Source of the DNA: Candidatus Limadaptatus stercoripullorum
GTDB lineage: Bacteria; Bacillota; Clostridia; Christensenellales; CAG-917
NCBI GenBank assembly: GCA_018713795.1
Contig: DVOE01000062.1
Span: 1 to 33,322, forward strand
Direction of reading: 5' to 3'
Length of the DNA stretch: 33,322 nt
The notes beneath the pieces were generated by a model. It was not told the DNA's origin. It saw only the letters and a list, made by a program, of their open reading frames with translations, and did no database searches. Position numbers and translations under genes: made by a program. This document shows, piece by piece, positions 1-3,231 of this stretch (positions are counted from its first letter, which is position 1; each line of letters begins with the position of its first letter).

Positions 1-57
1 GCAAGCGGCGAAATACACTCCTTCGGAGCGTTCTTACATGCACGCACTACGCCTAAA

Positions 58-84
58 GAAAAACGGACCCGTAGGGGTCCGCTG
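58..84 (-). terminator. Rho-independent terminator of the SCIFF/maturase operon
   Basis: Minus strand GCGGACCCCTACGGGTCCGTTTTT: 8-bp GC stem followed by a T-run, just downstream of the maturase stop at 120. Confidence 0.8.
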
Positions 85-119
85 TTTGTTTGGTGGCGCG
101 CCGCTCGCTGTGCGGCGGG

Positions 120-1544
120 TCAGGGCTCGCAGGCGGTGCAGTCGTCGCAGGGGGCGGCGGGTGAAGCGGGAGCGGCGGAGTCGAGGAGGGCGGAGGCGTT
201 CACGGCTATGGCGCATTCCAGGCGCTTTTTGAACAGGCGGCAGCCGTAGGTGTAGGCGCCGTCGATGGAGCCGGTGGCGTGGAAGGAGTTCGCCGCGCAG
301 CCGCCCGCGCACCACAGACGCGCGCCGCAGTCCGCACACTCGGCGCGGGTGAACACATTGGAGGAGCGGAAAGCCTCTCTGATGTCGGGACGGGTGATGC
401 CCGAGGCGAGATCTCCCATCAGGAAATCCTTTTCGCCGACGAATTGATGGCAGGGATAGAGCTCGCCGGTCGGGGTGACCGCGAGATACTCCGAGCCCGA
501 GCCGCAGCCCGAAAGCCGCTTATAAATACACGGTCCGTGTTCAAGATCGAGCATGTAGTGGTAGAACACGAAAGGTGTACCTTTCTTCCTTTCCTCGATC
601 ATGCGCTCGGCGAGGAGCTCGTATTGGCGCATAACGACGGGGAGATCCTCTTCGGTCAGCGCGTAGGGCGAGTCCGGCGGGCAGACGACGGGTTCCATGC
701 TCAGCCTGTCGAAGCCGAGGGAGAGCATGGCGTCGATATCCTTCATGAAATCGGGATTGAGGTGAGTGAAGGTGCCGCGGATATAGTATTCTTTTCCGAT
801 GGCTTTGCGCGCGGCTTGCAGGGCGAGGAATTTGGGGACGATGATGTCGAAGCTCCCGACGCCGCCCACGGTCTTGCGGAAGCGGTCGTTGACTTCCTTT
901 CTGCCGTCGAGGCTCATCACGACATTGTCCATCTCGCGGGAGGTGAAGTCGATGACTTCCTCGTCCACGAGCATACCGTTTGTGGTGAGGGTGAAGCGGA
1001 AGTGCTTGCCCGACTCCTTTTCGCGCTCTCTGCCGTAGGCGACGAGGCGTTTCACCGTCTCCCAATTCATGAGCGGTTCGCCGCCGAAAAAGTCCACTTC
1101 GAGGTTGTGTCTGTCGCCCGACGACTCGATGAGGAAGTCGAGAGCGCGGCAGCCCGTCTCGTAGGACATGAGCGCGCGTTCGCCGTGGTAGCGCCCTTGG
1201 CTCGCGAAGCAGTACTCGCAGTCGAGGTTGCAGGTGTGCGCGACATGGAGGCAGAGCGCTTTGAGGACGCCGGGGCGCTTTGCGGGCGCGACGAGATCGC
1301 TCGAAAATCGCTTCTTTGCAAAAAGTTTGCCGGCGGCTGCCAATTCGTCTATCTCGGCGAGGCACTCGTCCGCTTCGCTCTCCGTCAAACCGTGTTTTTC
1401 GAGCAGCATCGCGGCGAGCTCTTCGCGGGAGGAAGAAGGGTAGAGGTCTATCGCGTCGCGGACGGCCTCGTCCACGACATGTATCGCCCCCGTCTCGCAG
1501 TCGACGGCGAAATACATCCCGGAATTAAAAAAAGTATGGACCAT
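120..1544 (-). CDS. Radical SAM/SPASM thioether cross-link-forming SCIFF peptide maturase
   Basis: CxxxCxxC radical SAM motif (CNLDCEYC), FFGGEPLMNW, C-terminal SPASM-type cysteines (CGSGSEYLAVTPTGELYPCHQF, CADCGARLWCAGGCAANS), adjacent to the SCIFF precursor. Start moved from track 1580 to MVHTFFNSG at 1544. Confidence 0.9.
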   Translation of the reverse strand: MVHTFFNSGMYFAVDCETGAIHVVDEAVRDAIDLYPSSSREELAAMLLEKHGLTESEADECLAEIDELAAAGKLFAKKRFSSDLVAPAKRPGVLKALCLHVAHTCNLDCEYCFASQGRYHGERALMSYETGCRALDFLIESSGDRHNLEVDFFGGEPLMNWETVKRLVAYGREREKESGKHFRFTLTTNGMLVDEEVIDFTSREMDNVVMSLDGRKEVNDRFRKTVGGVGSFDIIVPKFLALQAARKAIGKEYYIRGTFTHLNPDFMKDIDAMLSLGFDRLSMEPVVCPPDSPYALTEEDLPVVMRQYELLAERMIEERKKGTPFVFYHYMLDLEHGPCIYKRLSGCGSGSEYLAVTPTGELYPCHQFVGEKDFLMGDLASGITRPDIREAFRSSNVFTRAECADCGARLWCAGGCAANSFHATGSIDGAYTYGCRLFKKRLECAIAVNASALLDSAAPASPAAPCDDCTACEP

Positions 1545-1598
1545 AATCAAAGCCACCCGAGCACGCTCGGGCGGCTGCAATGTAGGAAGCGGGAGGAA

Positions 1599-1745
1599 TT
1601 ACTTCGCGTTATTCTCGCACTTCTGGTTGGCGACGCCGCAGGAAGTCTTGCAAGCGGACTGGCAGGAGGTCTGGCATTCGCCGCAGCCGCCGTTCAGCTT
1701 GCTCTTTTCAAGGTCGCGGGTGTTCAGGGTGACTATTCTCTTCAT
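1599..1745 (-). CDS. SCIFF (six-cysteine ranthipeptide) precursor peptide, 48 aa
   Basis: Translation MKRIVTLNTRDLEKSKLNGGCGECQTSCQSACKTSCGVANQKCENNAK; six Cys at 21,24,28,32,36,43; SD AAGGAG upstream; directly upstream of the maturase. Not in the ORF track (<60 aa). Confidence 0.95.
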   Translation of the reverse strand: MKRIVTLNTRDLEKSKLNGGCGECQTSCQSACKTSCGVANQKCENNAK

Positions 1746-1772
1746 GGCTGAGCTCCTTATAGCTTTTTTAAG

Positions 1773-1801
1773 ATTATATAACGCGCGCGCGGATTTGTCA
1801 A
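1773..1801 (-). promoter_or_regulatory. Sigma-A-type promoter for the SCIFF operon
   Basis: Minus strand TTGACA-N17-TATAAT (-35 at 1796-1801, -10 at 1773-1778) upstream of the SCIFF ATG. Confidence 0.85.
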
Positions 1802-3231
1802 CGGGCGAGGGCGTCTCCCGCCGCCGCGACGGCTATCCTGCCTTCTGGTATCGCTCCGCTGTCCGAGACGAGGAACGCGCCCGCTTTTGCCGCTTCCGAA
1901 AGATAATCGGCAGCCTGCTCCGTTACGCGCTCGCCGCGCACGAGGACGGGCACACCCGGGGGATAGAGATAGACGCTCTCGGCGCATATCTTTCCCACCG
2001 CCGCGGATATCTCCTCCCACGCCTCGGGCGTGTCCTGCGGAAGAGAAAAGATCTCGGCGGGATCCGGCAGCGCGAGGACTCGCCGTCTCCCCGCCGAAAG
2101 ACCGCGATCCGCCTCCTTGACGGCATTGGCGAGCCGCGCGAGCGAGAGGGCGTCGTCGCCCGCCGAAGCGAGCATCAGCACGCCGCAGGGCGAGGCGTAC
2201 TCCGCCTCTATCCCGAACTTGTCTCTGAGTAGTTCCGAGACGCCGTAACCGTTCAAAGAGCATGATGAACAGTCGATGTAGATCTTTGAAGTGTCTCTTT
2301 TGAAATTTACGCCGCTCGCCGTCAGGCTGTCGCCGAGTACTTTGAGACGCTTTGTATCCGCCGTTTCGCGGTAGAACGCGTCGAGCCCGGCGAGCAGGGG
2401 ACGGAAGAGATCTTCGCCCATATCTTCTGCCGCGAGGAAAAATTTGTCCGCCGCCGCCATGAGGATGTAGGAGGGGCTGCTGCTCACAAAAAGGGACATT
2501 GCGCGCGCGATCCCCGTGAGATCGGGGCGGTCGGTGTGGACGGTGAGGAGAGCCGTCTGCGTGAGCACGGGCAGGGTCTTGTGAAGCCCGCATATGACGA
2601 CATCTGCGCCCGCGCGTCCCGCGCTCTCCGGGAAGGCGGAGGAAAGGGCGAAATGCGCTCCGTGCGACTCGTCGACAATGAGGATACTACCGTTAGAGTG
2701 CACGATCCTCGCCGCTTCGCGTATATCCGTCGTCACGCCCTCGTAGGTCGGAGAAGTGAGAAAAACGGCGTCGTAGTTCCGCTTTGACAAAGCTTTTTTG
2801 AGCTCTTCGGGCAGCACTCCGCCGAGCAGTCCGGTCTCAGGGTCGGAGGGCTGGGGGAGATAGTCCGCCCGCGCGCCCAAAAGCTCCGCCGCGCCCGCAG
2901 CAGAGCGGTGACAGCCGCGCCCGATGAGCACGCTGCCGCCACGCCCCACGCAGGCGTAAAACGCCGCGAGCACCGCGCCCGTGCCGCCGTTGACGGAGAG
3001 GAAAGCGCGCTTCGCGCCGTACAGCCTCGCCGCGCGCTCCAAAGTGCGGGACAGCACGCCCGAAGGGGCGTGAAGGTCGTCCGCGCCCGCTATCTCGGTG
3101 ATATCGAGTTCGCCGCCGAGCTCCCTGAGCCATGGAAAAGCGCGGGTGTTGCGCTTGTGTCCCGGCATATGCATGGGGAGGGCGCCGTCCGTCAGCTCCT
3201 TTATCCTGCCGATGAGAGAATTGTCGTCCAT
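1798..3231 (-). CDS. Orn/Lys/Arg decarboxylase family PLP enzyme
   Basis: LPMHMPGHKRNTRAFPWL N-terminus, VDESHGAHFA, GLHKTLPVLTQTALL PLP-lysine region; 477 aa. Confidence 0.9.
   Translation of the reverse strand: MDDNSLIGRIKELTDGALPMHMPGHKRNTRAFPWLRELGGELDITEIAGADDLHAPSGVLSRTLERAARLYGAKRAFLSVNGGTGAVLAAFYACVGRGGSVLIGRGCHRSAAGAAELLGARADYLPQPSDPETGLLGGVLPEELKKALSKRNYDAVFLTSPTYEGVTTDIREAARIVHSNGSILIVDESHGAHFALSSAFPESAGRAGADVVICGLHKTLPVLTQTALLTVHTDRPDLTGIARAMSLFVSSSPSYILMAAADKFFLAAEDMGEDLFRPLLAGLDAFYRETADTKRLKVLGDSLTASGVNFKRDTSKIYIDCSSCSLNGYGVSELLRDKFGIEAEYASPCGVLMLASAGDDALSLARLANAVKEADRGLSAGRRRVLALPDPAEIFSLPQDTPEAWEEISAAVGKICAESVYLYPPGVPVLVRGERVTEQAADYLSEAAKAGAFLVSDSGAIPEGRIAVAAAGDALAR

Follow-up and report, generated by a model that had tools for sequence, protein, structure and literature searches.

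SCIFF peptides are found in most Clostridia, and their role is unsettled. The best described members, CteA of Clostridium thermocellum and Tte1186a, have been assigned two conflicting crosslinks: in vitro work placed the link between Cys32 and Thr37, whereas later co-expression placed it between Cys32 and Thr34, through the gamma carbon (reviewed in PMC8326336 and PMC8172795). The only physiological role reported in PMC8326336 and PMC8102284, both of which cite Chen et al. (2020) for it, concerns quorum sensing and sporulation genes in C. beijerinckii and C. ljungdahlii.

The window analyzed here is an entire contig (C54; 33,322 nucleotides) from Candidatus Limadaptatus stercoripullorum, and the contig edge (base 1) lies just past the terminator of scfB. 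Its core locus (Table 1) is an ordinary SCIFF locus of genuine ranthipeptide family identity: the 48-aa ORF that a sequence-only reading of this DNA had put forward as the precursor is present, with CGECQTSCQSACKTSCGVANQKC and six cysteines, and matches TIGR03973 over model positions 1-43 of 43 (82.2 bits, cut-off 50) as well as PF13165 (81.8 bits, cut-off 27), and the maturase, ScfB, matches TIGR03974 (656.8 bits, cut-off 425). Over residues 1-451, ScfB aligns with the full length of CteB (5WGG; E 1.2e-148), the iron-sulfur cysteines included, and its score against the exception family NF040492 (not_ScfB), 501 bits, is below the model cut-off of 855, which excludes it from that family. That the precursor was missing from the ORF track, as the same reading had remarked, is to be expected, because SCIFF precursors, being small, are easily overlooked in annotation (PMC5300114). 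The genome holds one copy each of SCIFF and ScfB; two SCIFF matches per genome were seen in G043, G088, G106, G140, and G318. The near-universality of SCIFF in the class was borne out, with matches in 250 of the 293 genomes sampled. All eight small genomes of one family (f18) in the window's order depart from this pattern and lack SCIFF (G044, G078, G127, G149, G189, G271, G284, and G300; 0.8-1.2 Mb, 98-100% complete).

Table 1. Features of the scfAB locus and its upstream neighbor, in window coordinates
Feature	Position	Strand	Basis
scfA, SCIFF precursor, 48 aa, six Cys; Cys32, Thr34, Gly37	1599..1745	-	TIGR03973, PF13165
scfB, SCIFF maturase (radical SAM/SPASM), 474 aa	120..1544	-	TIGR03974; CteB 5WGG match
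scfA promoter TTGACA-N17-TATAAT	1773..1801	-	12/12 match; transcription start expected near 1766
scfA Shine-Dalgarno (SD) AAGGAG	1753..1758	-	read from sequence
Intercistronic hairpin, 11 bp, 4-nt loop, T-rich tail; probable leaky terminator/attenuator	1551..1576	-	
GGGTGG, only SD-like motif before scfB, within hairpin 3' arm	1553..1558	-	inference
Intrinsic terminator 3' of scfB	52..83	-	stem 83-62, fold
Orn/Lys/Arg decarboxylase family gene (OKR), co-directional, directly upstream of scfA promoter	1798..3231	-	PF01276

We compared 159 SCIFF loci, namely, the window and 158 relatives from 80 GTDB contigs and about 80 genomes, mostly one per family, retrieved with a pattern that required six cysteines, Glu23, and Lys33 and left residues 34 and 37 free. 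Residue 37 is Gly in 105 of these peptides, including that of the window, and Thr in 54, in a sample that favors the Gly37 type because 80 of the loci were picked as closest to the query. In the ScfB tree, the Gly37 type forms a single clade (support 100, one change), and the type of residue 37 predicts the gene context. In 47 of the 54 Thr37 loci, the arrangement is tgt-yajC-(TIGR04086)-scfAB-secD-secF, the remainder being cut by contig ends or unassigned; in the window's genome, the row ruvB-queA-tgt-yajC-TIGR04086-secD-secF-recJ-relA lies on contig C12, without scfAB. Both types are found in the window's own family, in different genera. TIGR04086, the membrane protein encoded before scfA in the Sec-linked loci, was considered as an obligate partner and rejected, since Gly37 genomes retain its gene even with no scfAB alongside. 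The leader motif T[RK][DNE][LMIV] occurs in 103 of 105 Gly37 peptides compared with 1 of 54 Thr37 peptides; thus, the leader, previously offered as a natural variant for maturase studies, is not a one-off but is common to the whole Gly37 clade.

The gene directly upstream of the scfA promoter, overlooked in the sequence-only reading along with the strong hairpin between scfA and scfB, belongs to the Orn/Lys/Arg decarboxylase family (PF01276, 118.5 bits, cut-off 27), and the corresponding activity is predicted, the PLP-lysine motif HKTLP aligning to 2x3l, the nearest solved structure. It alone among the genes of the genome exceeds the OKR cut-off, and its stop codon overlaps the -35 box of the scfA promoter. 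Divergent from it lies a YjbQ-family gene (TIGR00149; 3327-3743, plus strand), and several members of the genus have a cluster, in part an antisense ORF, at this same place upstream of OKR. By a strict count, a co-directional OKR gene adjoins scfAB in at least 66 of the 105 Gly37 loci, directly upstream of scfA in 36 and directly downstream of scfB in 30, and in none of the 54 Thr37 loci within the available flanks. Another 16 Gly37 loci are cut off at a flank, and 23 with both flanks have no adjacent OKR by the strict count; two of the latter (L046 and L088) carry one by a looser rule, leaving at least 21 without. In 24 of the 30 downstream-type loci, the OKR start codon falls within -20 to +30 nt of the scfB stop codon, in many at -4 or -1, and because of these start/stop overlaps of 1-4 nt, OKR is probably translationally coupled to scfB in such loci, which belong to other genera. 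In the upstream-type loci, only 1 of 34 OKR-scfA spacers contains a terminator. The upstream and downstream OKRs mostly form two clades, and an AU test rejects the grouping of all scfAB-adjacent OKRs together (p 0.0007, on a quick tree of 45 rows with long branches). From two separate recruitments, subject to the long branches of that tree, we infer that OKR is probably linked functionally to the Gly37 SCIFF branch.

The reading that competes most strongly with this link takes the OKR neighbor to be neutral, scfAB and OKR both being housekeeping genes that are neighbors by descent or through horizontal transfer, and we consider the prospects of this reading to be close to even. OKR is nearly universal (77 of 80 genomes), so that it cannot serve SCIFF alone, and in most of the Thr37 genomes examined, it has a separate home with tmk, yaaQ, holB, and a PSP1-domain gene (names assigned by sequence reading). 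The Gly37 loci with both flanks and no adjacent OKR also favor neutrality, and the co-occurrence of both scfAB types in the window's family is consistent with transfer or loss. What speaks against neutrality is the separate placement of two OKR lineages next to scfAB, one on either side, invariably co-directional and with tight overlaps. Hitchhiking with the tmk cluster was considered as a present cause of the link and rejected: near the Gly37 loci, tmk and PSP1 genes were not found, and holB was found in three only. The three OKR-negative genomes (G003, G018, and G024) also lack SCIFF; for two of them, G003 (89% complete, same genus) and G024 (99% complete, same family), sister species have both genes, and such joint absence would follow from loss of both neighbors at once or from a gap in the assembly. 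That OKR genuinely forms a third part of the Gly37 SCIFF pathway, or is its immediate physiological partner, and was recruited two or more times, is a possibility that we put forward only tentatively; if true, the role of SCIFF would be tied to diamine/polyamine or acid-stress metabolism. A recurrent gene partner with probable translational coupling offers a concrete handle on SCIFF function.

The control regions of the locus present another facet of its organization. The scfA promoter claimed in the sequence-only reading is present and is the sole perfect one among four promoter-like sites in 3.4 kb (0.6 expected); near-consensus promoters (at least 10/12) lie upstream of scfA in 91 of 102 Gly37 loci and 23 of 53 Thr37 loci, against 5 of 155 shuffles. 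The terminator claimed 3' of the radical SAM gene is likewise present, with a folding z of -4.25. Within the 55 nt between scfA and scfB, the window contains a GC-rich hairpin (p<0.01 against 100 shuffles) with a T-rich tail, which qualifies as a terminator when defined as a stem plus a T-tract, although the tract, TTGATTAT, is imperfect. Such terminators are found in 95 of 134 SCIFF loci (71%) with scfA-scfB spacers of 35-299 nt, compared with 141 of 558 (25%) other co-directional spacers of the same loci (Fisher p 2e-22, to be read, like the counts, with the proviso that related loci are not independent observations), and this contrast is, if anything, understated because the control spacers include operon ends. 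For spacers of 35-90 nt only, the figures are 60 of 82 and 35 of 230, respectively, and 2.6 terminators would be expected in shuffled scfA-scfB spacers; in 39 of the 134 spacers, no terminator was detected. The stem sequences are unrelated between families, indicating that what is conserved is where the element lies and how it folds; among members of the genus, the stem persists despite altered pairs, for example, G-C, A-T, or T-A at one position, as counted on a stem-anchored hand alignment, the MAFFT alignment having misplaced the arms. In three loci from sister species (L116, L117, and L120), a second small hairpin, e.g., CATCCGTTTTCGGATG, lies just upstream of the terminator hairpin; the window lacks it. 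The earlier description of an independent, self-contained two-gene unit captures only part of the picture, given the terminator-like hairpin between them and the co-directional decarboxylase that adjoins them.

About half of the intercistronic stems end within some 35 nt of the scfB start, and in the window, where this gap is 6 nt, there is no room for a separate promoter, so that scfB is probably transcribed by read-through of the terminator-like hairpin. An attenuator in this position points to surplus production of the peptide, and the combination of a strong scfA promoter with an intercistronic terminator implies that scfA is probably strongly expressed, in excess over scfB. Alternatively, the locus could be an ordinary SCIFF pair, fully co-transcribed, in which the hairpin acts only in mRNA processing or stability, guarding the 3' end of scfA after cleavage. 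We regard this as unlikely: the imperfect T-tract in the window would fit, as would the strong stems without a T-tract in some relatives (L057, L105, and L112), but most relatives (such as L006, L016, L021, and L069) have a classic stem with a T-tract, at a frequency far above that in the control spacers. It is more improbable still that the hairpin is a full scfA terminator and that scfB has a promoter of its own, for which the 60-200 nt between terminator and scfB in some loci would be room enough, but the hairpin is followed by the scfB ATG within less than 40 nt in many relatives, and no promoter-like site was found between hairpin and scfB in the window.

The Gly37 branch also bears on the crosslink, because its members are natural substrates that separate the two conflicting assignments. 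A crosslink to the side chain of Thr37 is impossible where residue 37 is Gly, and Thr34 is invariant in all 159 peptides, which supports Thr34 as the general acceptor, although by itself this is not decisive for the Thr37 peptides. The product of the window's locus would, then, be a ranthipeptide with a putative thioether from Cys to a non-alpha carbon, the acceptor Thr34 being present.

With respect to leader removal and export, the absence of a protease or exporter inside the scfAB operon, as originally claimed, was upheld. A GG pair precedes Cys21 in 105 of 105 Gly37 peptides. The C39 peptidase is the protease of double-glycine transporters, and PF03412 has no matches in the window's own genome (95% complete) and none in 21 of 22 genomes searched. 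A double-glycine (C39/PCAT) transporter for SCIFF is therefore unlikely here, and a C39 transporter supplied in trans was rejected on the same ground. The notion of an exported antimicrobial sactipeptide or bacteriocin, prompted by the small size and Cys richness of the peptide, its radical SAM maturase, and GG before the core, can be given hardly any credence in view of the near-universal single copy, the near-invariant core, the lack of an adjoining exporter or immunity gene and of a C39 peptidase in the genome, and the wide spread of SCIFF, which speaks against such a role (PMC8326336).

Taken together, these observations make it rather likely that the window carries a distinct Gly37-branch SCIFF locus with a leaky scfA-scfB terminator, an excess of peptide, and a tie to OKR. 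In the scheme we propose, a near-perfect housekeeping promoter would drive scfA; most transcripts would stop at the hairpin, 22 nt past the scfA stop codon, leaving precursor mRNA in excess, and occasional read-through would yield a little ScfB, limited further by the placement of its only SD-like motif within the 3' arm of the hairpin. By analogy with CteB and Tte1186, ScfB would then bind the leader and crosslink Cys32, most likely to Thr34, residue 37 being Gly; leader removal and export, if any, would proceed by means other than a C39-type transporter, and the neighboring OKR would probably be tied functionally to the Gly37 branch. The two-branch structure, the decarboxylase link, and the attenuator appear to be undescribed in the literature compared, in which we found no paper combining SCIFF with secDF and in which co-mentions of SCIFF and a decarboxylase were matched by words only; the founding paper (Haft and Basu 2011) lies outside that scope and may contain an earlier mention of the sec or decarboxylase gene context.

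Among the known systems, thermocellin CteA/CteB and the Tte1186a/Tte1186 pair belong to the same precursor and maturase families as the window's proteins. As in CteA and Tte1186a, Cys32 is the fourth cysteine of the window's peptide and Thr34 is present, but residue 37, reported as Thr in both, is Gly in the window, where scfAB adjoins OKR in place of the sec locus that is typical of Thr37 loci. Unlike CteB, the window's ScfB has a 23-residue C-terminal extension beyond the CteB-aligned part (120-188, minus strand), ending in CDDCTACEP; similar Cys-rich tails are found in about a dozen scattered Gly37 ScfBs (L035, L039, L042, L050, L054, L058, L061, L069, L084, L087, L088, and L095), not in the closest relatives of the window. 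The SCIFF-derived ranthipeptides of C. beijerinckii and C. ljungdahlii are of the same family as the window's peptide. Freyrasin (PapA/PapB) likewise depends on a radical SAM/SPASM maturase that forms non-alpha thioethers, but it has six Cys-Asp links, and the window's ScfB scores below the cut-off of the PapB model (249 versus 340 bits). Finally, the YaaO-type Orn/Lys/Arg decarboxylase of the tmk-holB cluster is of the same enzyme family as OKR (PF01276; 2x3l), but unlike this enzyme beside tmk, OKR in the Gly37 genomes mostly lies beside scfAB, as it does in the window.
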